From Phycisphaerae bacterium (GTDB lineage Bacteria > Planctomycetota > Phycisphaerae > Sedimentisphaerales > Anaerobacaceae), in NCBI GenBank assembly GCA_028714855.1, contig JAQTLP010000006.1, positions 124,001 through 188,000 on the forward strand: DNA of 64,000 bases, in the 5' to 3' direction. The notes below the pieces were generated by a model. That model was not told the DNA's origin. It saw only the letters and a program-made list of their open reading frames with translations, and searched no databases. Below, piece by piece: positions 6,404-39,116 of this stretch; position 1 is the first letter of the stretch, and every line of letters starts with the position of its first letter. A program made the position numbers and the translations under genes.

Positions 6404-8140
6404 TTATTTCCTTAACCATTTTTCCGATTCTTCCCGTTCGATAACATCGAGCATAACTCTTTCTATCGTTGCCGCGCCGTCGGGAACGGTTTCGCGAATA
6501 ATCCTTTCTTTCAGACGTAATGCCTCTATGTATGTCGGCCGGGCTGCAAGTGCCCAGTTCAAATTGTTCAATGCGGCTTCCTTTTGGCCTGCAAGGTAAT
6601 ATTCCACAGCTTTTGCATAGCAGTCTTCATAAATCCGCATTCTTGAAATCGAGCTTATCCCTTTTCTCGAACCATGAACAATTCGGCTAACGTCATTTGC
6701 TCTGTCTGCAGATTCAGATGCAAGGTCTTGCGGGTCATTAATAATATGCGGAGTTATCAATACGACAAGCTCTGTGCGGACATTGGCGTCTTTAGTTCTT
6801 TTGAACAGCCCGCCGACAATAGGCATATCACCTACGATAGGCACCTGTGCATCGGTATTGGTGAGCTGTTCCTTGAACAGACCGCCCATAATTATCGTTT
6901 CGCCGTCCTTTACCATTATGTTGCTCTTAATCTGCGTAACAGTTTTTAAAGGTAAATTACCATTAGCATCCAGTACGGTTCCGGTACTCAGTTCAGGGCT
7001 AATCTCCATACGAACGTACCCATCCTCGCATATAAAAGGCCTGAACTTCAGAATTGTACCGCTTATAAGAAAGTCCACCGAAGTTGTTGTAGTCTGACCT
7101 TGAGTTGTGCTGGCGGTGTAGCCTCTTTCTTCACCGATATTTATATAACCGGCCTGTTTATTTAATGCCATAATCTTCGGATTGGCAAGCACAGTCGTAT
7201 TGGTAACTTCTTCAAGAGCGGTGATTGAAGCTATTACCTCTTCATTCGAAAATTCAGCAGTAAGGCCGGTTCCAGTCGGTGTTATCCCGCTTGTAAGACT
7301 TACCGCCATCCCAAAAGGCAACCCCACACCTGGGGTTGCCGTCATGCCGGCAATTTTTGTCCAGTCTATGCCGAATTGTGTGGTCTCGGAGAGTTCGGCC
7401 TTGAGAAGTGTAACTTCTACCAGTATCTGCTGCGGCTTTATGTCTACTTCCTTAATCATCTCTCCGATTTTTTCCAGCCTTTCAGGAAAATCGTAAACAA
7501 CTACCGTATCTCTCATACTGGTCGTATTACCGCCCTCTCCGGCTTCGGTGTCGACTGCTGCAGCAGCAGTCGAGGTAACCTTACCTGAGTCACTCAGCAG
7601 CGGTGTAACTAAGGCTTTTACTTCGGCCGCGTTGATGTAGTACAACGTAAAAACCTCATGTTCCATTCGGTCCTTGTCTTCTTTAAGCTTCTTGTATTCC
7701 CCTTCGGCATAGACTTTGACCAGCTGACCTTCTTGTTCGTATTTGAAGTCCACACCCAAAATCGCGTCCATTGCCTCTTCGAAGGTCACGTTGTATAGAC
7801 GCGTAAATCCCATTACCCCATCGACTTTCGCTGACGGCACTATATTCTTCTTATACATCGCCGACAAAACACGAAGTCCGTCTCTGATTTTACTGTCTCT
7901 ATCGAAGGTAATTGACTGTATCGTTCCGCCCGCCGCTATACCTTCGCCGCTGCTCACGCTAACGTCCTTTGTGATTATGTTTTCTTTGGCCTCGGTTGTC
8001 ACCGGGGCTTGCTCAACATCGCCAAACGCTGTTGCTGCTGTCACAGCCAATATCATCAGGATGCCTTGCACCGCAAAGCCAGATATGAGCAGCGCCATTT
8101 TGTTCTTGATTCCGTTTTTCAAACTTTTATTGTGACACAT
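6404..8140 (-). CDS. gspD: Type II/IV secretin (GspD/PilQ family)
   Basis: 578-residue outer-membrane secretin. After an N-terminal hydrophobic segment (about 15-38), the N-domain part carries a secretin/TonB short N-terminal-like fold (SITFDRDSKIRDGLRVLSAMY) and a stretch linking to the ring-building domain. The C-terminal secretin core (about 270-510) includes TTVLANPKIMALNKQAGYINIG and VPIVGDMPIVGGLFK, a hallmark of the family. About 60 residues with TPR-like character follow (AVEYYLAGQKEAALNNLNWALAARP), which is unusual and may contact the neighbouring TPR lipoprotein. ATG 8140 follows an AGAGAG site; the TTG immediately after the upstream stop is less likely. Confidence 0.93.
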   Translation of the reverse strand: MCHNKSLKNGIKNKMALLISGFAVQGILMILAVTAATAFGDVEQAPVTTEAKENIITKDVSVSSGEGIAAGGTIQSITFDRDSKIRDGLRVLSAMYKKNIVPSAKVDGVMGFTRLYNVTFEEAMDAILGVDFKYEQEGQLVKVYAEGEYKKLKEDKDRMEHEVFTLYYINAAEVKALVTPLLSDSGKVTSTAAAAVDTEAGEGGNTTSMRDTVVVYDFPERLEKIGEMIKEVDIKPQQILVEVTLLKAELSETTQFGIDWTKIAGMTATPGVGLPFGMAVSLTSGITPTGTGLTAEFSNEEVIASITALEEVTNTTVLANPKIMALNKQAGYINIGEERGYTASTTQGQTTTTSVDFLISGTILKFRPFICEDGYVRMEISPELSTGTVLDANGNLPLKTVTQIKSNIMVKDGETIIMGGLFKEQLTNTDAQVPIVGDMPIVGGLFKRTKDANVRTELVVLITPHIINDPQDLASESADRANDVSRIVHGSRKGISSISRMRIYEDCYAKAVEYYLAGQKEAALNNLNWALAARPTYIEALRLKERIIRETVPDGAATIERVMLDVIEREESEKWLRK

Positions 8141-8179
8141 AATTTGTCTCTCTTTTTTTAATACTTTTTCATTTATCAA

Positions 8180-8859: not shown

Positions 8860-9408
8860 CTACCCTTGTCCAGCCTCCGCCCTGTAATAAATAACCGCAT
8901 TTGTCTGCACAACCACTTCGCCGCCGAAATCATTATCATTCACAAGCTTTACACGTTCGATGCGAACCAGCCTGTCTAATCCTTGCACTTCTCTATAAAA
9001 TTCGAATATCTGCGACAGTCTGCCTTTACACTGCATATTTACTGGCACGCAGTTCAAATCCCCTGCTCTTACTTCTTTGCCGGGCTGAATCATCTGTCCC
9101 TTAAGATTATGCTCATTCATCAAGTCAGTGATTTTTTGCATAAATTCGCCAAGCTCTCGTCGCGCAGGTATTTGTCGCTCATAGTTTCCAACCGCTGCCC
9201 GCAGGCCAAGCAGTTCTTCTCTGGCTGCCGGCATCTGCCGGCTTTCATCTAAAGCCTTTGAAACAGCAAGCATCCGCAATGCGTAGGCCTGCCTGAGAAA
9301 TTCCGTTTCTCTCTTCAAAGGCAGATATCTAAACAGCACGAATCCGCAGATCATCACTGCCGCGGCTGCAAATATCGCTATTTGTCGTTTTTCTCGAAAT
9401 CGTATCAC
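8860..9408 (-). CDS. pilO: PilO/GspM-like inner-membrane assembly protein
   Basis: 182 residues with one N-terminal membrane helix (about 10-27), a coiled-coil segment (about 32-85) and a ferredoxin-like periplasmic domain (PVNMQCKGRLSQIFEFYREVQGLDRLVRIERV), the usual PilO layout. PilO pairs with PilN in the inner-membrane alignment complex. The start overlaps the stop of the PilN-like gene by 4 nt, so the two are probably co-translated. The call rests on domain layout and gene order. Confidence 0.85.
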   Translation of the reverse strand: MIRFREKRQIAIFAAAAVMICGFVLFRYLPLKRETEFLRQAYALRMLAVSKALDESRQMPAAREELLGLRAAVGNYERQIPARRELGEFMQKITDLMNEHNLKGQMIQPGKEVRAGDLNCVPVNMQCKGRLSQIFEFYREVQGLDRLVRIERVKLVNDNDFGGEVVVQTNAVIYYRAEAGQG

Positions 9409-10148
9409 AGACCTGCCGCCTTCTCCTTTTGTGCTTCTTCTGTAAGTTCATCCGCTGCTGCAGAATAAAATTCCTCTTGCCTGTAATTCGCCAGATTGCA
9501 GCTTATTTCAAATTCACTCACCTGAAATTTCTCTCCACCGGCACCGGCTGTTGTTTTCATCTCTTTGTTGCGAGTAAACAATGGTGTAACCTGAGAAAAA
9601 TAAGGCGAGTCTTCCAGATTGCATATCAATGTCGCTACTCCGCCTCCATCTGACGCAACACCATTTATCAACACCTTAAATCTAACGTCGCCGGGCAGTG
9701 ACGACTCTTTACTGCCAATATTACCACTGGCCGCTCTAACCGCAGAACGGCTGCTTGTTTTCTCTTCCCACCTGTTTCCGAACTTCTCGGCAATGAATTC
9801 GACTTTGCTCAACACTATCTTTTTATCAACCAAAAAGCTTATCTCAGCTAAAACATTTGCAACGTTAATTCTCGAATCAATTGCTTCTATAGTTCTCGCT
9901 TTTTCCTGTAATTGGGCCGTTTCGCTTTTAATCTCGGCGAATTCTTGTCCCGCACTTTTCACGCTCGCCGACTCAATCTCCGCCTGGGCAAGCTCCGCTT
10001 CGGCCCTTGAAAGCGAATGCGTCGCAACAAAATTCCACACCAATATCGCTACAAATATACCGCCTAAGCCGGCATATTGTGTGCGGTAGCTAATCCGCCG
10101 CTGTCTGCCGTTTTTATACCATGTTGGGAGAAAATCAATTTCTTTCAT
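9405..10148 (-). CDS. pilN: PilN/GspL-C-like inner-membrane assembly protein
   Basis: 247 residues beginning MKEIDFLPTWY, which matches the typical PilN start (INLLP-like). PilM binds this N-terminal motif. A membrane helix spans about 27-44, a coiled coil about 48-90, and a periplasmic ferredoxin-like domain fills the rest. It overlaps both the PilM gene (10145-10148) and the PilO gene (9405-9408) by 4 nt, so the three are tightly coupled. The tail is acidic and Glu/Ala-rich. Confidence 0.87.
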   Translation of the reverse strand: MKEIDFLPTWYKNGRQRRISYRTQYAGLGGIFVAILVWNFVATHSLSRAEAELAQAEIESASVKSAGQEFAEIKSETAQLQEKARTIEAIDSRINVANVLAEISFLVDKKIVLSKVEFIAEKFGNRWEEKTSSRSAVRAASGNIGSKESSLPGDVRFKVLINGVASDGGGVATLICNLEDSPYFSQVTPLFTRNKEMKTTAGAGGEKFQVSEFEISCNLANYRQEEFYSAAADELTEEAQKEKAAGL

Positions 10149-11404
10149 AATTTCCGCTGGCCTTCCCAGCCCTTAAGACTGAGCCCAACTGCTACTGCCC
10201 ACTCACAAAGTAAATTTCGTCTGTTACTGTCAAAATTCACTTTCGTACCATCTAAGATATCTAAGCCTTTCAACGGCTGTGCAATCTCAATCTTTGCGGT
10301 CAGGTGCCGTCTCAAAACATTCAGCAAAATTCTTTCGTACGCTTCTCCACCGGAAAAAACCGCCCGCTCAACATGCTTGCCCCTGAATGTCACCGTATAA
10401 TATCTTAGACACAGCGATATCTCTTTTGCCAGTTCCTCGGCGGCTGCCCCGATTGCATCAGCCATTACCTGCTGCGTCGATGTATCAAGAGCGCTTCGAC
10501 TGAGTACTTCGACGGCGGACTGCTCAGAACGACCTAACTGCTCAGCCGAATGACCGCCCCAATTCTCTTCCGCTTGCGGAATCGAATCAGAGTTGTCTCC
10601 CACCGGCGGGCTTAACTGCGACACACCAAGACCTGCGTCCGCCCTTAGCATACTTTCCATCTGCAGCTTTCCTCGAAGTATCTCGGCTTCGTCGATGCTG
10701 ACACCTAATTTCGATGAGATTTCGCTGTTAAATTTTTCCCCGCCAATCGGTATCTGCTTGGTAAAACTAATTTCTCCTCCGCGTCCGAACACCACCGTCG
10801 TGAACCGGCTGCCGACATCCACAAAAACAACCGTCTGCTCTTTGTCCTCCTCGCGCCGGCGCGACCTCTCAAAACTTCTGAACAACGCACATGGAACCGT
10901 ATCTATGGCAACAGGTCTAAGCCGCACCTCTTCGAGCATCGCAATATGGCTTCTTATTGTTTCATCGGATGCGGCAAACAATATCAGCTCATTCTTAATC
11001 TCATCGCCGCACTGAACATTCCCGGCAACCAAATAGTTAATTATGTCCTTCTCCGGGTCCATCCCGAAACGCTGACCGGCTTCTTTTTTCAATGCCTGCT
11101 CAATCTCGTCCGTTTCCGTCTCGGCCAATCGCAGACTCGTTATTTTTAATTTCTCACTTGGAAGACAAGAGACAACGTTCCGTCCGTGAAACTTACCCTC
11201 CGCCAGCATTTTCTTTATCGCAGAAATAATAAAGCTCCTTCTTGCTTTTTCATCACCGTTCATACCCCTAATATGGACCTTATCCGCTGCAAGGATACTT
11301 ATATGTTCCCCGCTCATCACCAGCTGAATCATCTTGATAGAATTGTGACCTATGTCCAATCCTATCGGCTGCAGACTTCGCGTTTTTAGTTTCCAGCTTA
11401 CCAT
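10145..11404 (-). CDS. pilM: PilM-type actin-like ATPase of the pilus/secretion platform
   Basis: 419-residue cytoplasmic protein of the FtsA/PilM actin-like fold. The nucleotide-binding segments are visible: PIGLDIGHNSIKMIQL near the N-terminus (phosphate 1), VVFVDVGSRFTTVVF in the middle (phosphate 2) and RAVFSGGEAYERILLNVL (adenosine). PilM recruits PilN to the inner-membrane platform. It is longer than usual because of a Ser/Gln-rich insertion (about 265-305) without clear fold. The gene overlaps pilN by 4 nt. Confidence 0.9.
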   Translation of the reverse strand: MVSWKLKTRSLQPIGLDIGHNSIKMIQLVMSGEHISILAADKVHIRGMNGDEKARRSFIISAIKKMLAEGKFHGRNVVSCLPSEKLKITSLRLAETETDEIEQALKKEAGQRFGMDPEKDIINYLVAGNVQCGDEIKNELILFAASDETIRSHIAMLEEVRLRPVAIDTVPCALFRSFERSRRREEDKEQTVVFVDVGSRFTTVVFGRGGEISFTKQIPIGGEKFNSEISSKLGVSIDEAEILRGKLQMESMLRADAGLGVSQLSPPVGDNSDSIPQAEENWGGHSAEQLGRSEQSAVEVLSRSALDTSTQQVMADAIGAAAEELAKEISLCLRYYTVTFRGKHVERAVFSGGEAYERILLNVLRRHLTAKIEIAQPLKGLDILDGTKVNFDSNRRNLLCEWAVAVGLSLKGWEGQRKL

Positions 11405-11421
11405 TTACGTTTTTCCTATCA

Positions 11422-12018
11422 TCACTCAATCGAGATAAAACCTGTAACGGGTTCTACCCTTATGGTCATACTAAAGTCCCCTGCCGCGATGCTGATTGTC
11501 CCGCTGTTTAACGCTGCCCCGCTTCCGCTGTAAGGACTGCCAAGATAATCGAACGTAATCGTATCACTCGAATCAAAATCAGCACCGTCGATAACAACAT
11601 TTTCCAGTCTCGAATCACTGCTGAAGGTCATTCTGTAAGGTTTCTTCGTGACAGGGTGCGTAAGTATTATTCCGTCCGCGTCGCGGATTTCGTAATAGCC
11701 GCCGCCCGGACTAAAAAACACCGAATAATTCTCCTGCCTGCTGATTGCCATACTTTTGGTATATTCCAGGTCCGCAGCAATCACATTCGCCGCAGACCGA
11801 ATCTGCACACTGTCCATAGAGCCTATCATTGGCACAGCAATCATCGCTGCTATTGCGATTATCATCACCACAAGCAAAATCTCCACCAAAGTAAAACCGC
11901 CGCCCGGATGGCGAATCCTCCGAAGCCGGTGTCGCAAATTAGCTGTCTTTTTTTCTTTGTCTTTGCGCACTATATCACCCTTTACATCAGTTCTTTTTTC
12001 GTCCTCTTTAAGATGCAT
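11422..12018 (-). CDS. GspH/FimT-like minor pseudopilin with a long leader
   Basis: Prepilin-like protein of 198 residues. The type III signal GGG/FTLVEILLVVMIIAIAAMIAV has Gly at -1 and Glu at +5, followed by a GspH/FimT-like globular domain (ADLEYTKSMAISRQENYSVFF). ATG 12018 follows GAGG with 5-nt spacing and gives a 41-residue, strongly basic leader, far longer than the usual 5-15 residues. A GTG about 16 codons further in has AAGGG upstream and would give about 25 residues, so the start is uncertain. Prepilin peptidase should cleave after the last Gly. Confidence 0.85.
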   Translation of the reverse strand: MHLKEDEKRTDVKGDIVRKDKEKKTANLRHRLRRIRHPGGGFTLVEILLVVMIIAIAAMIAVPMIGSMDSVQIRSAANVIAADLEYTKSMAISRQENYSVFFSPGGGYYEIRDADGIILTHPVTKKPYRMTFSSDSRLENVVIDGADFDSSDTITFDYLGSPYSGSGAALNSGTISIAAGDFSMTIRVEPVTGFISIE

Positions 12019-12036
12019 CTTTACCTCGATTTTCAA

Positions 12037-12305
12037 CGCTTACATTGGTTTCCCGCCATTTAACCATCGCTTTTTATCGGCCTATATCCGCAAGTGCAAT
12101 ATCAGCTTAGTTTCTTCACATCACTAAAGTCAGAAACAGTAAAACCGACACAATCGTCAAAATAAGGTAGGAAAAAATCAAACCATTTCTATGCTTTTGA
12201 AAAGGCGGGAATATGCAATTTATGTCTTAAGCTCGAGGATTTTTCTTTGGGATTGCCGCAAAGGCCGATAAGCACGTCGGCTTTAAGCTGTCCGATAACG
12301 CGACC
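12037..12305. other. Intergenic segment inside the pseudopilin operon
   Basis: About 270 nt between the PilX/GspK-like and GspH-like genes, which is long for this compact operon. Read on the minus strand, it contains short stems such as GCCGA(N8)TCGGC near 12260-12278 and CTTTG(N9)CAAAG near 12246-12265. It also repeats ATGCTTTTGAAAA (12189-12201 and 12318-12330). I see no ORF with a convincing start and cannot assign a function. Confidence 0.4.
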
Positions 12306-13373
12306 TTAAGGCCTTGCGATGCTTTTGAAAAACGCCCCAGCCACAGGACTCCACCTTACAGGATCGACACTTGGCCAGGTCGTAATTTCTGTCTTCGACG
12401 GCGCAGCGGTTATAACCATACGACCGGCGCCTGTAAGCAAATCTTTGAGGAACAATCCGCCGGTTATGTTGACGTCGCCGCTGTTTGCTAATCTTACGTT
12501 AACAATAGCAAGGCCATTGACACGCAGGTAGCCGTCTGTTGCTACTATCACATTGCCGGTTACTAACATCGCCGGCAAATTTTCTCCTGCCGTAATGACG
12601 TTTCCGTTTCCTGTTATTGTCAGGTTGCCTTCAACAATAAGCATGCCTTCGATTTGGACATTGCTGGCTAATTCCAAATTGCCGTAGTAATAACACACCT
12701 GCGAAGAGCCGCCCAGACTATTGCTATCAAGAGTATTGGCATCTATGGTTTGTACAGAATAATGCGAGGTAAAGTCCCCCGCCGCAACTTGCGGCCAAGT
12801 CAGTGACAAATCCCCCCTTGCCTTAAGTCGCCCTGTTAAGATTCCACCTCCGGCTAAACCATTTGCAAACACATCGCCGTAGATTGTGCCGCTGTTTGCT
12901 AATGTGCCGTTACAATAGACATCACCGTTGATTGTAACATTGGGTACGATTAATATGCCTTTTTCTACCCAGAATGCTATGCACGGGTCGAGTCGCAATT
13001 CTGCCTCTAAACGGCTGCGCCCGATTCTTTCGCCGTTCTTCTCTCTATACGCATCACAAATTATCTGATAATTACATTCCCCATTTGCATCTTGAGCCAC
13101 ACTTACATCGTAGAAATCTTCGCTGCCGCCCGTTAATTGCTGACCGGTAACCGCCCAATTTCCCAAATAGGTATTGTCATTGAGTATCAATCCCCTGGCG
13201 TATTCCAGCCCAGATTCCGCCAGATAATCCATTTGTGTCCGAAGTATCATATTCTCCCCGCAGGCCAGCTCCACATCGCTTCGCGACAAAAAGCTCAGCG
13301 ACAAAATCGTTATTGCCATAACGATAAGCAGCACAACAAATAGTGCCGACCCTTTTCTATTAGTATTCTTCAT
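12306..13373 (-). CDS. PilX/GspK-like prepilin protein with a repetitive C-terminal domain
   Basis: 355 residues. The N-terminus MKNTNRKGSALFVVLLIVMA has the hydrophobic helix and GSAL start of PilX/GspK N-terminal domains, with G-S instead of G-F at the cleavage site. The mid and C-terminal part (about 140-330) is built of short turns such as TINGDVYCNGTLANSGTIYG and VQIEGMLIVEGNLTITGNG. These suggest a right-handed beta-helix like bactofilins. Its place between GspJ- and GspH-like genes matches GspK, but a canonical GspK domain is not seen. The beta-helix makes a tip or scaffold role possible. Confidence 0.75.
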   Translation of the reverse strand: MKNTNRKGSALFVVLLIVMAITILSLSFLSRSDVELACGENMILRTQMDYLAESGLEYARGLILNDNTYLGNWAVTGQQLTGGSEDFYDVSVAQDANGECNYQIICDAYREKNGERIGRSRLEAELRLDPCIAFWVEKGILIVPNVTINGDVYCNGTLANSGTIYGDVFANGLAGGGILTGRLKARGDLSLTWPQVAAGDFTSHYSVQTIDANTLDSNSLGGSSQVCYYYGNLELASNVQIEGMLIVEGNLTITGNGNVITAGENLPAMLVTGNVIVATDGYLRVNGLAIVNVRLANSGDVNITGGLFLKDLLTGAGRMVITAAPSKTEITTWPSVDPVRWSPVAGAFFKSIARP

Positions 13374-13375
13374 AT

Positions 13376-13927
13376 CTAATCGTCATCACTTGCAACAGCA
13401 TCGCCCGCAGTGTTCAGCAGATTTCCTGCCCAGCCGCGCAGAGCAGCGTTTATCTGGTACCGGCGGGTAGCGATGTCTTCAACAATATCGAATGAAATAC
13501 TTACAAATTTTCTTTTCATCACCAGCAACGACGGCTCATCAAATTGAAATTGCACATTACTGCACTGGGCAATCAGCACCACAGGGTCGGCGCCGGGATC
13601 GCGAAGCTGCAGTTTGCCGTCCACAGCTTCTATATAAGTTTGTTCACTGCTATCGATTACGTTATCGCTGTTATCGTCCGACTTCCAGATAGTAATGGAA
13701 GTAGCTGTATCGCCGCATATAAGTTTGCAGTGGCGAATCAACTCCGAAATCCTGACGCTTGCGAAACGCACCTGTGCTTGTTTCTCCGCCATATCGTTTG
13801 TAGTTTCATTCACTGCCCCGAGGGTGTAAGCTAAAGTGGCCGTAGCAGCAAGAACTATACTGACAACCATCAATGCCATCAGCAGCTCAACAAACGTAAA
13901 ACCATTTTCGTTTCTCTTTGCTCGCAT
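13376..13927 (-). CDS. GspJ/PilW-like minor pseudopilin
   Basis: 183 residues with a prepilin signal NG/FTFVELLMALMVVSIVLAA (Gly -1, Glu +5) and a GspJ/PilW-like body (QVRFASVRISELIRHCKLICGD). Minor pseudopilins I, J and K form the tip complex that starts pseudopilus growth. It lies 2 nt upstream of the GspK-like gene and 17 nt after the GspI-like gene, matching the usual I-J-K order. Confidence 0.85.
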   Translation of the reverse strand: MRAKRNENGFTFVELLMALMVVSIVLAATATLAYTLGAVNETTNDMAEKQAQVRFASVRISELIRHCKLICGDTATSITIWKSDDNSDNVIDSSEQTYIEAVDGKLQLRDPGADPVVLIAQCSNVQFQFDEPSLLVMKRKFVSISFDIVEDIATRRYQINAALRGWAGNLLNTAGDAVASDDD

Positions 13928-13944
13928 CCCGTTTTCCCAATGCG

Positions 13945-14385
13945 TTACTTGCTTATAAGCCGTTTTATAATTGCGATTTCCTTCCCGTCATAATTTACCT
14001 GTACCGTCGCGAGAATAAATTTCGCTTCCTCAGTCTCGTCTTCTTGCGGCACCCACACATCCGCACAGGTTACTTCCCTGCTGAATTTGGCATAATTCAA
14101 ATCGGTAAACTCTGTCCTGCTCGCATCCTCTACGTGGCCTTGTTCCTCGGCGTAATTGTAATTATCTACAATATTAACATCGTTTAAGTGGTCGGAAATT
14201 ATTTCCTCCATCAAATCGCCTGCCAGTTTCGCCCCCAGCGTCCGATGCTCACCTTCAGCCCGAACCGCCAATCCGCTGGTAAATGGAAGCAGTATTCCCG
14301 CCGCGGCAATACCCAGCACCAAAGTGGCTATTGCCGCCTCAGCCAATGAAAATCCCTTTCGATTTCTCCAGCTTCGTTTTTTCAT
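13945..14385 (-). CDS. GspI/PilV-like minor pseudopilin
   Basis: 146 residues. The prepilin signal KG/FSLAEAAIATLVLGIAAAG has Gly -1 and Glu +5, followed by GAKLAGDLMEEIISDHL, the helix seen in GspI/PilV relatives. It is the first gene of the I-J-K tip set and follows a hairpin/U-tract that separates it from the upstream pseudopilin genes. Confidence 0.85.
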   Translation of the reverse strand: MKKRSWRNRKGFSLAEAAIATLVLGIAAAGILLPFTSGLAVRAEGEHRTLGAKLAGDLMEEIISDHLNDVNIVDNYNYAEEQGHVEDASRTEFTDLNYAKFSREVTCADVWVPQEDETEEAKFILATVQVNYDGKEIAIIKRLISK

Positions 14386-14415: not shown

Positions 14416-14461
14416 AAAAAAGCCGACCCGTCGCAGGCAATCGCCTCGGCAACGGTCAGCC
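14416..14461 (-). terminator. Hairpin with U-tract downstream of the degenerate pseudopilin
   Basis: On the minus strand GGCTGACC (14454-14461) pairs with GGTCGGCT (14421-14428) through 8 pairs including two G-U, followed by a run of T (14416-14421). It lies 40 nt after the stop of the minor pseudopilin gene and may attenuate transcription into the gspIJK-like genes. Part of its stem matches the hairpin at 14938-14979. Confidence 0.6.
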
Positions 14462-14500
14462 GGTTGTCCCTTTTCGATTACTCAGTCGTCTATTGACTCT

Positions 14501-14914
14501 TTACAGAGCCGCACATGCAGCATCATTGTCGGCCTGAAACATGCCCGTCTTCGTATCAAGCCGCCATCCTGCCTCCCCGGCCCCGGCCGGCTCTCCATCA
14601 AAACGGATTGTTTTAAGACCGTTAAATGGATTCGTTGGTATCCGCTCAACATACGGACCGTGCTCGCCGACTGTTGTTGTCATAGCTGTTTCAAAACTTT
14701 TGTATGAATCCGCAGGAGGAAGAATATCTTCGTGCTGAACTCGGTATAAATCTATCTGAATACGCATTGCTTCAAGCCCGTCAACCAACCCGGAAATCTT
14801 TGCTTCTTCGTTACTCGCTTCCGTAAACTGCGGACTAATCATCTTCCCGGCTATGCCCAACACAATTGCCACGACCATTACTTCGACATACGACAAGCGA
14901 ATATTCTTTTCCAT
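14501..14914 (-). CDS. Degenerate GspG-like pseudopilin lacking the cleavage glycine
   Basis: 137 residues starting MEKNIRLSYVEVMVVAIVLG. The helix and the Glu at +5 of a prepilin are kept, but Gly -1/Phe +1 is replaced by Arg-Leu, so prepilin peptidase may not cut it. The body parallels the neighbouring major pseudopilin: QFTEASNEEAKISGLVDGLEAMRIQIDLY aligns with its QFTDASEDAKESALLSNLQTMRGQIELY, so it looks like a diverged tandem copy. Two ATGs (14926 and 14914) are separated by a run of G. I use 14914, for which the G-run acts as the ribosome-binding site. Confidence 0.8.
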   Translation of the reverse strand: MEKNIRLSYVEVMVVAIVLGIAGKMISPQFTEASNEEAKISGLVDGLEAMRIQIDLYRVQHEDILPPADSYKSFETAMTTTVGEHGPYVERIPTNPFNGLKTIRFDGEPAGAGEAGWRLDTKTGMFQADNDAACAAL

Positions 14915-14915
14915 A

Positions 14916-14924
14916 CCCCCCCCC
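14916..14924 (-). repeat. G9 homopolymer at a pseudopilin start
   Basis: Nine consecutive C on the plus strand (G on the coding strand) lie between two in-frame ATG codons of the degenerate pseudopilin. The tract overlaps the ribosome-binding region. Runs of eight or more G are slippage-prone in many bacteria, so length variation would alter spacing or frame from the first ATG. Phase variation is inferred only. Confidence 0.6.
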
Positions 14925-14932
14925 ATACTCTT

Positions 14933-14979
14933 AAAAAGGGCTGACCAACTCTCGGCCCTCGCCCAGGGCTGGTCAGCCC
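14933..14979 (-). terminator. Strong hairpin/U-tract after the major pseudopilin
   Basis: On the minus strand a perfect 10-bp stem, GGGCTGACCA (14938-14947 as plus) with TGGTCAGCCC (14970-14979), encloses a secondary stem (GCCC/GGGC) and is followed by five T (14933-14937). It lies 30 nt downstream of the major pseudopilin stop. It probably terminates or attenuates so that the major pseudopilin is made in excess over the rest of the operon. Confidence 0.8.
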
Positions 14980-15008
14980 GGTTATCTGTCCCTCAACGAT
15001 TCCGATTG

Positions 15009-15455
15009 TTACAGATTAACATGGTTCGGGTCATCGCTATCATCAGCCTGGAAAAGCCCTATATTGGCACCGGTAGTAACAAGGTTCCAGCCGTGGCTGT
15101 CATCTCCTGCCGTTCCATCCTCATCAATAGTGTTCAATTCATTGAAAGGATTAGCAGGAATCTTCTGCATATAAGGCCCATAGGCGCCGGCCGCATCAGC
15201 AGCGCCATCGACATCAGTTCGACCGGTTAAAGCAGCTGCAACGGCGGCGGTACCTGCGCCAGGCAGGGCGCCATTGTGCTGAGCCTTATACAGCTCGATT
15301 TGTCCGCGCATCGTTTGAAGGTTGCTGAGCAATGCACTCTCTTTAGCGTCCTCGCTCGCGTCCGTAAACTGAGGAATCACAATGGCCGCAAGAATACCAA
15401 GAATGACTACAACAATCAGAATTTCCACTAATGTAAAACCGCTTTTCGCTTTCAT
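15009..15455 (-). CDS. gspG: Major pseudopilin (GspG-like)
   Basis: 148 residues with a canonical prepilin start, MKAKSG/FTLVEILIVVVILGILAAI (Gly -1, Phe +1, Glu +5). The GspG-like body includes KIPANPFNELNT, similar to the conserved P-x-N-P-W/F region near the C-terminus. It should be the main pseudopilus subunit after prepilin peptidase processing. It is the first gene of the long secretion operon, with AAAGGG upstream of the ATG, its own promoter about 255 nt away and a strong hairpin behind it. The tail is acidic (QADDSDDPNHVNL). Confidence 0.92.
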   Translation of the reverse strand: MKAKSGFTLVEILIVVVILGILAAIVIPQFTDASEDAKESALLSNLQTMRGQIELYKAQHNGALPGAGTAAVAAALTGRTDVDGAADAAGAYGPYMQKIPANPFNELNTIDEDGTAGDDSHGWNLVTTGANIGLFQADDSDDPNHVNL

Positions 15456-18730: not shown

Positions 18731-21700
18731 CTATTGGTGTTTAACCACGAGCCCTATAATCATCTGACGGTTTATAGAACTGGAGTAAGTCGCGCTTGGT
18801 GTCTCGTTAGCGCCCGTAGCTGATTTATGGCCTGTTACACCGGTAACAGTTCCGCCCATTGTCTGGTCGTTGCCTTCGGTGAAGCCGTTGTTGAGCGTGT
18901 ATGAGCCGGAATTGCCGCAGGTGGCGCCGAGAATAACCATATCACCGCTGCTTGTCGCAAGTGAAGAGGTAGTAACCGGATTACTCGTGCTTCCACCAGT
19001 ACCGGTTGCTCCGGTAGATGTCGTCTGGTTGACATTTGAGAAAAATGCACTGGAGTATCCGGCGCTACCCGGTGCGGTGCCGCTCCATGTAGGAGTAAAC
19101 GTGCTGCTGCTCGCTGCAGCTACGTCTGTCTCCTTAAGAATAAATATCGCGGCATACGCATAACCGCTGGCGGCGTTGTAGTTATATTCAAGCACCTTGG
19201 TCATTGACTGACCGCCATATGTTACAGCGCTGAGATTCATAGTACTTGTGGACTCGGCGTGTGCGATGAATATCAAAGCACGGTTGGAACCCGATTCCTT
19301 TGTATGAGATGTTCCAGTTCCCCACGAACCCAGGAGACTGACCGGACTACCGCCTCCAGCTGCGGTGGTAAAGCTCCACACCGTTCCTGTGGTCGTGCCG
19401 TAGTCGTTTTTCTCATCGATGCGCCAGTAATAGGTCGTGCTGGCGGTCATTGTTCCTGTATCATAGGTTGTGCCTGTCTGGTTGCCCCTGAAGGTGCCGG
19501 GACTTGAGGTTCCGAAGTACACATCGTGCGAGGTCGCCCCTGACCCGGCTGTCCAGCTAAGGTCGGTCGTAACGCCGACGCTTGTTGCGCCGTTGGATGG
19601 CGACGGATTGCTTGCCTGTCCGGGCGCAGACCCACCTCCTGAGCCGCCGGCCTGGACAACGAAGCCGAGAAGTGCCTGGCGGTTAGTAGAAGTTGAGTGC
19701 GTTACGCTCGGTGTTTCAGATGCGCCTGTTGCGGGTTTGTGTCCGCCCATTCCATCGAAACTGGATACTCCAAGGTCAACACCTTTTGTAAAACCATTAT
19801 TTGCTGTATACGTTCCTGTTTCAGTACAGGTACCGCCCTCAATGACCATATCACCGCTGCTGGTAGCCAATGCGGAGGTTGTTATGGTCCCGGTATTCGA
19901 TACGCCGTTAGTTGCATAAGCTCCGACAAGGTCTGCCTGGTCGACGCCGCCAAGAAATACGCTTGTTATCGAAGTCGAAGTTGGCGAGCCGCCCCAGGAT
20001 GCGCTGATGGTGCTGCTGGTTGCGGCGTTGACGCCGGCTTCATTAAGGATAAATGCCCCGACGTATGCGCGGGTTTGCCAGCTGTAGGACTGGACTCTAT
20101 CTGTGATTTTCGTCATCGTTTGTCCGCCATAAGTTACAGTAGACAGGGTAGGATTTCTCCATGAACTGCCCTCAGCGTGCGCAATCACGATGAGTGCACG
20201 GTTACTGCCCGACTCTTTGGTATGAGATGTGCCGTTTACCCATGAGCCGAGGAGTTCAATGCCTTCGCCGGCTGGGTCGGTAGTCGCGGACATAGTGCTC
20301 GACCAGCCCGTCACATTGGGGGTGGCAGCACTGTCGCGCGCTCTGGCCCTGAACGAATACTGGGTACTCGCCGTCAGGCCTGAGGCAACGTATGTCGAGC
20401 TGCTTTGCCAGCCGCTGCTCTTGCTGCCGTCATTTGTGCATTCGAAGTAATATTGCACCGGCGGACTGGTGGCATCGGTGGCGGTCGTTGCGGTCATTGT
20501 GATTGTGCTTGAGCCCGTTGCCGTCGGGAATGAAGACCATGTCATCGGGTCAGGCGTCGGTGGTGTTGTATCCTGCACCGGCGGATCGGTGGTCGCATAT
20601 TGCGTACTTGACCAGCCGTTCACGTTTGGAGTAGCAGCACTGTCGCGTGCCTGGACCCTGAATGAGTACTGAGTATTCGGTGTCAGACCAGAAGCCGTAT
20701 AAGATGCACTCGATTGCCAGCTGCTGCTCTTGCTGCCGTCATTGGTGCATTCGAAGTAATACTGCACCGGCGGGCTGTCGGCATCCGTGGCGGTCGTTGC
20801 GGTCATCGCGATTGTGGTCTGTCCGGTTGCCTCCGGGAATGAAGACCAGGTCATCGGATCAGGCGTCGGTGGAGTAGTATCTGCTGTGCCGATAGTGCCA
20901 ACAAAAGTGTTCATACTGCTCGCAGCCAAAGTATTAGTACTGCCGACAGAGCCTCTGTTAGCCATATTAGAGGAACTTGTTGTTTCATACTTTGTATAAC
21001 TGCTCACAGTACCGCCAGACACTGAAAACGTCACGCTCTGGGAAGAGGAGTTCTGGTTTATAGCGACAATAACAACAGTGCTGCCGCTTTTATACGCAGT
21101 TACATAAACATTAGATTGCGGGCTGGCTGTCGCATCTACCCTGACGTATCCCGGCCGGACGAATTTAGCGAAATGGCTCATAACGTAACCGCGTTTGGTG
21201 ATATTTCCGCTTTCGTCGATTGGGCCGTAGCTTCTTCTTATATACCACCATATGTATGCACTCATGTTTTGAGTCATACAATTATGTATTTCCCTGCCTG
21301 TTGCAAGTGCGCCTGACCAGGTAGTATCATTCACGAGATGCTCGGTCATCCAATATTCTTTCCCTGAATAGGTGCCGCTTCCTCCGTAAATATGGATACC
21401 TACTATGTCACACTGCGATGAAGATGCTACAGTGTTCATATAACTTGAATTAAAACCGGTTGTTTCAGGAGCAAGTACCCGGGTTGGAATTACTGATGCA
21501 TTATTATTAAGGAAAGTTTGCATTTGTGATGCAGTCCATCCGCACGAATCGTAATCCGGCAAATAATCTGGTTCGTTCTGAACAGAAATGGCATATAGTG
21601 ATGCTCCGTTTGACGACATGTAATTAGCAAAATCCCTTAAATAATTGGCAAAAGCACTGTATGAACTTGTACTCAGTTGACCTCCGACGACATTATTGTT

Positions 21701-22039
21701 AGTTTTCATAGATGGCGGGGGCGACCATGGTGATGCCATTATAATCGCTCCGTGATTTGCGGCTCTTTGAGCAGTAGGGACTACATCGGCCCAGTCGTCT
21801 TCGTAAGGGGGAACCTCGACACGCAAAATGCTAAAGCCGATCTGTCCGTCACCGTTGCCAAAAGCCTTGTCTGCCTGGGCAGCAGTCAAATCGTCAATCC
21901 ATCTGGGGAAATTCATACCGCCATAGCCCCTCATAGTCTGCCTCGTAGTGTCTAAATTGATGTTCGCGGTCCCCGCCTCCGCCGTTTGGCTTAGAAGTAA
22001 CATCAGCGCAATGATTACTGTTAAATATGTCTTTTTCAT
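18731..22039 (-). CDS. Secreted GH30 family (xylanase-type) glycoside hydrolase with FN3 and duplicated C-terminal modules
   Basis: 1102 residues. A signal peptide (1 to about 22) precedes a GH30 catalytic barrel (about 25-320) close to subfamily 8 glucuronoxylanases. The acid/base is E156 in SVQNEPDY and the nucleophile is E233 in YWMTEHL; SPWSPPPSMKTN is typical. A beta side-domain reaches about 385. Two near-identical FN3 repeats follow (about 386-590), then a module of about 200 residues (starting LLGSWVNGTSHTKESGSNRA), a third FN3 and a second copy of that module at the C-terminus. ATG 22039 follows AAGGAG. It probably releases xylan oligomers outside the cell. The modules could bind carbohydrate or anchor the enzyme; I do not recognise them. 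Confidence 0.92.
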   Translation of the reverse strand: MKKTYLTVIIALMLLLSQTAEAGTANINLDTTRQTMRGYGGMNFPRWIDDLTAAQADKAFGNGDGQIGFSILRVEVPPYEDDWADVVPTAQRAANHGAIIMASPWSPPPSMKTNNNVVGGQLSTSSYSAFANYLRDFANYMSSNGASLYAISVQNEPDYLPDYDSCGWTASQMQTFLNNNASVIPTRVLAPETTGFNSSYMNTVASSSQCDIVGIHIYGGSGTYSGKEYWMTEHLVNDTTWSGALATGREIHNCMTQNMSAYIWWYIRRSYGPIDESGNITKRGYVMSHFAKFVRPGYVRVDATASPQSNVYVTAYKSGSTVVIVAINQNSSSQSVTFSVSGGTVSSYTKYETTSSSNMANRGSVGSTNTLAASSMNTFVGTIGTADTTPPTPDPMTWSSFPEATGQTTIAMTATTATDADSPPVQYYFECTNDGSKSSSWQSSASYTASGLTPNTQYSFRVQARDSAATPNVNGWSSTQYATTDPPVQDTTPPTPDPMTWSSFPTATGSSTITMTATTATDATSPPVQYYFECTNDGSKSSGWQSSSTYVASGLTASTQYSFRARARDSAATPNVTGWSSTMSATTDPAGEGIELLGSWVNGTSHTKESGSNRALIVIAHAEGSSWRNPTLSTVTYGGQTMTKITDRVQSYSWQTRAYVGAFILNEAGVNAATSSTISASWGGSPTSTSITSVFLGGVDQADLVGAYATNGVSNTGTITTSALATSSGDMVIEGGTCTETGTYTANNGFTKGVDLGVSSFDGMGGHKPATGASETPSVTHSTSTNRQALLGFVVQAGGSGGGSAPGQASNPSPSNGATSVGVTTDLSWTAGSGATSHDVYFGTSSPGTFRGNQTGTTYDTGTMTASTTYYWRIDEKNDYGTTTGTVWSFTTAAGGGSPVSLLGSWGTGTSHTKESGSNRALIFIAHAESTSTMNLSAVTYGGQSMTKVLEYNYNAASGYAYAAIFILKETDVAAASSSTFTPTWSGTAPGSAGYSSAFFSNVNQTTSTGATGTGGSTSNPVTTSSLATSSGDMVILGATCGNSGSYTLNNGFTEGNDQTMGGTVTGVTGHKSATGANETPSATYSSSINRQMIIGLVVKHQ

Positions 22040-22131
22040 TTTTTTCTCCTTATAATTGTGTTTCTCCCGTCTTCTCGCCGGCGCGTCGTTTTTTGTGATA
22101 TGTACCACTGAATCCGACTGTGCACCGGCAT
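22036..22131 (-). CDS. Leader ORF translationally coupled to the GH30 gene
   Basis: 31-codon ORF (MPVHSRIQWYISQKTTRR..., very basic, ending IIRRKK). It has a TAGGAG site just before its ATG, and its TGA overlaps the GH30 ATG as ATGA. It could couple or attenuate translation of the enzyme gene. The product shows no known attenuation motif such as runs of one amino acid. Chance is possible given the short length. Confidence 0.4.
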   Translation of the reverse strand: MPVHSRIQWYISQKTTRRREDGRNTIIRRKK

Positions 22132-22508
22132 ATTCTCCTATATGCACTTGATTTGTTTGTCTGACACCTCCTTAGCTCCCGAACAACCCCGGCTCCAAAA
22201 GCGATTATAAAAAGCCTTTAAGAACAACGTTGTCGACCAAATGCCCGACGTATATATCAAATACGAAAGAGGCATGACCCCTTAAACACAAGACCTTGGA
22301 GTTTTTGTCGATGAATTGTCCCCCTGTTATTCCCGCAAACAACCCCTTTTCCCTTTGTGGTCTTGCCTCTGTGTATAGCCATGGCAGTTATAAAACTTTT
22401 TTTCCTCTTTCCGTCAAGAAAAAAAATGGAAATAAAAGCAAGAAAATCTTGCCCGTTTTAACTTAACTTTTTGCTTTTTAGCGGTATTATGATAAGCCGT
22501 AAAGACTT
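22132..22508. other. Intergenic region between GH30 and a divergent small gene
   Basis: About 375 nt without a supported gene. On the minus strand a near-perfect Shine-Dalgarno (AAGGAGGTG, about 22169-22177) has no start codon at usable distance. The part next to 22509 is AT-rich with a possible TATGAT -10 element near 22489. No RNA gene was recognised. Confidence 0.4.
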
Positions 22509-38947: not shown

Positions 38948-39116
38948 TATCGCTCTCCAAATCAAGTCCACTGCACATATTTAAAAACAATCAGGCGCAA
39001 TTATATTATCAGCAAAGCTATGGTCAAGAAAAATGCCCGGAGTTTTAACCGGTTTTAAGATGTTCCCTGTTTCGGGATTTTACCCCCCCCGGCCGCCGAT
39101 TACCATCGACAATCGC

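Follow-up and report, generated by a model that had tools for sequence, protein, structure and literature searches.

The gspG-gspG2 locus

The window, that is, the whole 64,000-nucleotide stretch of DNA that was analysed, carries on its minus strand a filament operon in which the canonical gene of the major pseudopilin, gspG, is followed by a tandem paralog, here called GspG2. The gene order of the operon is common to the window and its relatives. The features of the locus are listed below; residues are numbered from the processing site, which an arrow marks in the motifs.

6404-8179, secretin-like GspD, named by eye and not by family search
8860..14385 (-), remaining genes of the filament operon (PilV-like, further pseudopilin, GspK-like, GspH, PilM, PilN, PilO), from family searches
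12306-13373 (-), GspK-like gene, separate from GspG2, from family search
14421..14470 (-), second hairpin of terminator-like form, downstream of the paralog, from terminator scan
14501-14926 (-), open reading frame from the first in-frame ATG, 141 aa, starting MGGGMEKNIRLSYVEVMVVAIVLGIAGKMISPQF...
14501..14914 (-), coding region of the gspG paralog GspG2 as counted from the second ATG, 137 aa; Met column common to 20/20 orthologs; TIGR01710 E 6e-6
14831..14896 (-), predicted N-terminal hydrophobic helix, +1 to +22, with Lys at +18, fast-evolving in the ortholog alignment
14882..14884 (-), Glu11 codon (position +5), Glu in 17/20 orthologs
14888..14890 (-), Tyr9 codon (position +3; Leu in canonical GspG), invariant across the paralog clade
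14897..14899 (-), Arg6 codon (position -1; Gly in canonical GspG), from the ortholog alignment
14916..14924 (-), G9 tract in a G-rich ribosome-binding region (C9 on the plus strand), sharing its first G with the upstream in-frame ATG
14932..14980 (-), terminator-like hairpin and T run between gspG and the paralog, -35.4 kcal/mol, z -6.8
15009..15455 (-), canonical gspG, major pseudopilin, G↓FTLVE, from family searches

Near the filament operon, a large protein is encoded at 18731-22147 on the minus strand. By eye, it has a glycosidase-like start and repeated fibronectin-like modules, and it is possibly a secreted substrate.

The neighbouring GspG begins MKAKSG↓FTLVE(IL...) and GspG2 begins MEKNIR-LSYVE: positions -1/+1 are Arg-Leu instead of Gly-Phe, while Glu+5 is retained. 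The original prediction had described just such a pseudopilin paralog, and the alignment to the neighbour bears it out, with the motif lost in 20/20 orthologs that are under purifying selection (see below). The canonical neighbour matches the prepilin-motif models Pfam N_methyl and TIGR02532; GspG2 matches neither, and in the Pfam and NCBIfam searches these models were matched by 0/20 paralogs. A Pfam search with the GspG2 of the window returned nothing, while across the 20 paralogs T2SSG was found in one and two chance-looking families in others. The score of GspG2 against TIGR01710 (26.3 bits, E 6e-6) is under the equivalog cut-off of 88.85 bits, as is that of the canonical neighbour (57.9 bits). 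The kinship of the two proteins is clear from profile comparison, in which a GspG2 profile matched the neighbouring GspG with 99.9% probability. A prepilin peptidase gene is present in the genome of the window.

Start codon and G tract

Nine G had been noted between two in-frame ATGs at the ribosome-binding site, and slippage there had been proposed to switch or tune expression. The run itself is present, and no G/C run of the window is longer; the sole other run of at least 7 is a C8 at 39083-39090. However, the upstream ATG supplies the first G of the tract, and it is the second ATG that is the likely start of GspG2 (14914), since the column of this codon is Met in 20/20 orthologs and the ATG preceding the G run occurs in only two of the 20 genomes, both of the window's genus. 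The upstream ATG was also considered as the beginning of a valid class III signal (MGGG↓MEKNI) and was rejected on inspection, as a charged stretch follows the Gly and there is no Glu at +5.

With the likely start downstream of the tract, slippage could not shift the frame of GspG2 and would alter spacing only. A sister species reads ATGGGGGGGACGATG, with G7 at unchanged spacing, and differs by substitutions with no change in length. The 20 genomes differ in the longest run of G found in the 30 bases before the start (2 to 9), and in most of them the purine-rich sequence there is interrupted. The length of the run in the window and its overlap with the ribosome-binding region might suggest a switch, by phase variation or by tuning. 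This proposal is not supported, as the likely start is downstream, the tract is not conserved and the other relatives have plain or interrupted purine-rich ribosome-binding sites, and it is very improbable. An extreme ribosome-binding site is the best account of the tract.

Distribution and loss of the processing site

A single-protein search of a collection of genome contigs found no relative, and an alignment search gave 17 loci. Those relatives of the locus that carry a name are metagenome-assembled Phycisphaerae, Sedimentisphaerales and Planctomycetota, which suggests an uncultured planctomycete of this class as the host. A profile search of the family's 89 genomes found an ortholog, among the matches listed, in 20 genomes from 11 genera; presence in relatives had been proposed as a check, and the paralog is there. 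A profile search of 161 genomes of the order placed all 20 carriers within this one family (two further matches under its threshold, G112 and G080, proved to be canonical G↓F genes and do not enter the counts), and 397 sampled genomes of the class held no ortholog outside it.

The residue at -1 was scored for the fetched loci, among the matches listed by the search of 89 genomes. In the 20 orthologs it is Arg (15), Gln (2), Cys (1), Leu (1) or Asn (1) and never Gly or Ala, whereas all 20 adjacent canonical GspGs have Gly in an invariant G↓FTLVE. Given 0/20 against 20/20 in adjacent genes, the loss of the motif is beyond chance. The +3 residue separates the two genes as sharply, with Tyr in 20/20 paralogs and Leu in 20/20 canonical copies. 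The +5 residue of the paralogs is Glu in 17, Arg in 2 and Gly in 1 (n = 20, window included). Their leaders are devoid of any Gly or Ala past the Met in 13 cases, and 3 of the 20 have Ala at -2.

The paralog lies directly behind canonical gspG, on the same strand, in 20/20 genomes. Synteny was taken for 11 of these Gly-less genomes, and the gspG-paralog order is identical in all 11; tsaE lies upstream in 9/9 where the stretch reached that far, and HK-RR-HD-GYP genes lie downstream in 7 of the 9 with sufficient sequence.

Inverted constraint

The constraint on helix and head is inverted between the paralog and the canonical protein. Over the helix (+1 to +25), mean pairwise identity is 99.2% among canonical copies and 40.9% among paralogs; over the remainder, that is, the head, it is 51.6% and 61.9%, respectively (20 sequences each). 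Arg or Lys stands at +18 or +19 in 11/20 paralogs and Asp at +21 in one, while the canonical copies are all uncharged there. The hydrophobic stretch after the site is there in the paralogs in weakened form, with a mean hydropathy of 1.9-3.0 versus 3.65 in canonical copies, and it contains a charged residue in 12/20 paralogs. In 10 close pairs, chosen from 190 possible, dN/dS is 0.22-0.38 for the paralog and 0.21-0.40 for the canonical gene of the same genomes; in the first 30 codons of the paralog it is higher in several pairs, although over few sites. The identity contrast and dN/dS together indicate that the head of the paralog is selected and that the helix is free of the usual pattern of the filament core. 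Fast divergence of the helix and loss of the processing site might also be expected of a decaying, functionless duplicate. This explanation was rejected on dN/dS and on a head that is better conserved than that of the working copy, in genes with no internal stop in any of the 20, and it deserves next to no weight.

Predicted fold of the head

The AlphaFold2 model of GspG2 has a pLDDT of 84.5, lowest across the N-terminal third. It was compared with 42 PDB chains, and the five that match best are all crystal or NMR structures of GspG major pseudopilins, with Z from 5.2 to 7.4, values that by the aligner's own guidance (under 8) are not strong by themselves: 3gn9 (Z 7.4, rmsd 2.5, 84 residues), 1t92 (Z 7.0, rmsd 2.7, 85 residues), 4lw9 (Z 6.9, rmsd 2.8, 80 residues), 3g20 (Z 6.8, rmsd 3.9, 93 residues) and 5o2y (Z 5.2, rmsd 2.8, 86 residues). 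The model of the canonical neighbour (pLDDT 89.5) likewise has GspG in all of its top five, and the same guidance applies to its scores, among them 1t92 (Z 7.4, rmsd 2.9, 94 residues), 3g20 (Z 7.3, rmsd 4.6, 102 residues) and 4lw9 (Z 7.2, rmsd 2.9, 95 residues). Foldseek searches against the PDB were weak for both (best E 0.62 for GspG2 and 0.13 for the canonical control). As modelled, the predicted head of GspG2 is as GspG-like as that of the working copy.

Hairpins flanking the paralog

The likely start of GspG2 (14914) is 94 bases past the end of canonical gspG. In 20/20 genomes, the spacer between the two genes contains a hairpin followed by at least 4 T, and in 3 of 12 consensus pairs the pairing is preserved by changes on both sides. 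The hairpins at 14932-14980 and 14421-14470 are related, being of the GGCTGACC...GGTC[A/G]GC type, and flank the paralog. Similar hairpins are seen in relatives, between tandem pseudopilin genes. Intrinsic terminators are the basis for expecting less transcript past such a structure. The first hairpin should, given its resemblance to them, let gspG outproduce the paralog; as a counterpoint, a simple terminator scan of the stretch gave 3 sites against a shuffle mean of 1.7, rates that are close.

Phylogeny and sister copies

The 20 paralogs form one clade (100/99) in the tree built from 81 proteins. They do so again in a head-only tree (100/95), which was built without four long-branch rows that the full tree included (L029_2356, L031_2113, L022_1468, L022_1957). 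Sister to the 20 in the 81-protein tree (92/92) are five copies from two genera, which keep Gly-Phe and whose +5 residue is Gln in four and Arg in one; the head-only tree holds all 25 together at 99/94.

The surroundings of the sister copies differ from those of the window. The locus reads argH-thiL-tsaE-[copy] in the five genomes, and gspG, pilMNO and the secretin gene gspD were not found there in 5/5. RR and HD-GYP genes follow the copy in four of the five (in L152 neither was found behind it), and no kinase was found beside the sister copies. In L146 (5500-9300) and L151-L154, the site holds one GspG-like gene, and the filament operon was not found between tsaE and RR/HD-GYP. The four sister copies of one genus have a dN/dS of 0.06-0.19. 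Other filament ATPases occur in 5/5 of these genomes, and a prepilin peptidase above cut-off in 4/5.

Further pseudopilin copies were also seen. A tandem clade with Ala at -1 (A↓FTLxE) lies behind gspG in L063 (oriented 1884-2582), L020, L028, L085 and L097. These 'AF' paralogs, with Ala at -1 in 5/6 rows and Gly in the sixth (L071), were rejected as members of the same family, since they group separately (100/100) and occur together with the Gly-less paralog in one genome, G082. The tandem copies of L086, L087, L090 and L093, all of one genus, keep Gly-Phe and have Gln in place of Glu5; they were likewise rejected as clade members, as they fall outside it in the tree, in a clade of their own. 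A pseudopilin at L095:821-1327 (METRRRFTKVRILL...) has neither Gly at -1 nor Glu5. The tree places it among canonical GspGs, so its motif loss is probably an independent event.

Possible role of GspG2

The conserved Gly of the prepilin leader is called 'absolutely critical' for processing in one review (PMC4471445), and in another the class III leader 'invariably ends' in Gly or Ala (PMC10191384). Both reviews have Glu5 pairing with the N-terminal amine (PMC10191384, PMC4471445). Because the reviews make Gly or Ala essential and its loss at -1 is conserved in 20/20 orthologs, GspG2 is likeliest uncleaved and membrane-bound, as originally predicted. The cap or regulator role suggested along with this is possible.

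The reading favoured here, at a probability of about 0.52, is that GspG2 would be an uncleaved, membrane-anchored and non-elongating GspG head, an accessory that presents this head at the assembly platform as a dock, a primer or a base cap. The major pseudopilin would have been duplicated, and the copy, having lost its prepilin-peptidase site, would have been retained for its periplasmic head. GspG2 would insert via its N-terminal helix while the leader stays cytoplasmic, giving a single-pass inner-membrane protein. With its N-terminal amine masked and a helix that departs from, and is presumably mismatched to, the filament core, it would be barred from serving as a regular subunit of the filament. 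Present in low abundance, it may contact pseudopilins at the assembly platform, where its Glu+5 (17/20) could engage the terminal GspG through that subunit's free amine, while GspG2 would offer none to the next subunit. In this it would be the converse of the tip subunit, which lacks Glu5.

For an accessory of this kind speak the loss of Gly/Ala, purifying selection, the conserved head, the degenerate helix and the fixed place behind gspG and the hairpin. Against the base-cap version stands the absence of Glu+5 from 3/20 paralogs and from all five sister copies; and the persistence of sister copies where gspG and the operon were not found at the locus implies that a role confined to the filament is not general.

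GspG2 resembles the major pseudopilin GspG of type II secretion systems (TIGR01710) in sequence (E 6e-6), predicted head fold, operon, long N-terminal helix and, mostly, Glu+5, but differs from it in having no Gly or Ala at -1 (20/20), Tyr rather than Leu at +3, an unconserved helix and a score under the cut-off. Like GspK, the minor pseudopilin of the tip, it is a pseudopilin relative missing one of two polymerisation features. The tip subunit GspK is cleaved. The missing feature is not the same, however: GspG2 keeps Glu5 and loses the cleavage site, while the tip minor pseudopilin is described without Glu5 (PMC10191384). TfpY of Pseudomonas aeruginosa is portrayed as an accessory that contacts pilins and is absent from the pilus (PMC11841053). 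Its way of working is like that proposed for GspG2, in that a membrane partner of the major pilin is thought to touch pilins outside the pilus; unlike GspG2, TfpY has three membrane helices and is no pilin paralog (PMC11841053). A further parallel is offered by the mitochondrial GspGs of some protists, which function where no GspO-type peptidase is recognised yet keep maturation features and appear matured (PMC8134430). For GspG2, conversely, the peptidase gene is present and the site gone. PilS senses PilA (PMC6058289), and a link of GspG2 to the HK-RR genes of the operon, which would sense it in this manner, is possible.

Three rival explanations are each unlikely, the first two being the main ones. 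The head may have been recruited to a task apart from the filament, for instance as a membrane-tethered sensor or adaptor, with gspG merely its origin. The sister copies, which join the window's group in the head-only clade and are under selection at a locus where the filament genes were not found and RR and HD-GYP genes mostly follow, point this way; yet they have kept Gly-1 and may still be cleaved, other filament ATPases are present in their genomes and might be served by the copy, and all 20 Gly-less copies still adjoin gspG. About as unlikely is the notion that the N-terminus has turned into a Sec signal peptide, with signal peptidase I cutting after Ala+27 and releasing a soluble periplasmic GspG head. 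Pro+22 and Ala+27 are present in 20/20 paralogs, a small residue (A/G/S/T/V) occupies -3 of the putative site in 19/20, and in 11/20 the hydrophobic core is cut short by a basic residue at +18/+19. However, canonical GspGs share the P-Q-F-[TS]-x-A stretch, which argues that it is inherited rather than new, and an invariant Tyr+3 and a Glu+5 in 17/20 would be left unexplained.

Less probable again is that GspG2 is still cleaved, at an alternative residue or a shifted site, and serves as a divergent minor pseudopilin of the filament. Its place in a pseudopilin operon, the frequent Glu+5 and the prepilin peptidase of the genome would suit such a subunit, and Ala at -2 leaves a slightly shifted cleavage possible in 3/20. 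Most leaders (13/20) nevertheless have no Gly or Ala past the Met, the Gly is rated absolutely critical in the review cited above (PMC4471445), and the helix has lost a core sequence that is 99% identical among canonical subunits.

A broader and doubtful reading would see in the 25 copies a once-duplicated pseudopilin whose N-terminus was disabled in two ways, by loss of the cleavage site in 20 genomes and of Glu5 in 5. Its head, exapted into a module either held in the membrane or released, would have a role outliving the filament operon, making this a non-polymerising lineage.

In the open-licence literature searched, no description of an uncleavable or unprocessed pilin like GspG2 was found. 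Type IV filament subunits are defined by their cleaved leader, and the natural exceptions met in papers concern Glu5. GspG2 would naturally separate the two presumed signals of subunit addition, the free N-terminal amine and Glu5, which are otherwise approached via laboratory mutants. A conserved paralog lineage that lacks the cleavage site and keeps its head under selection would show the pilin fold to be usable without polymerising.
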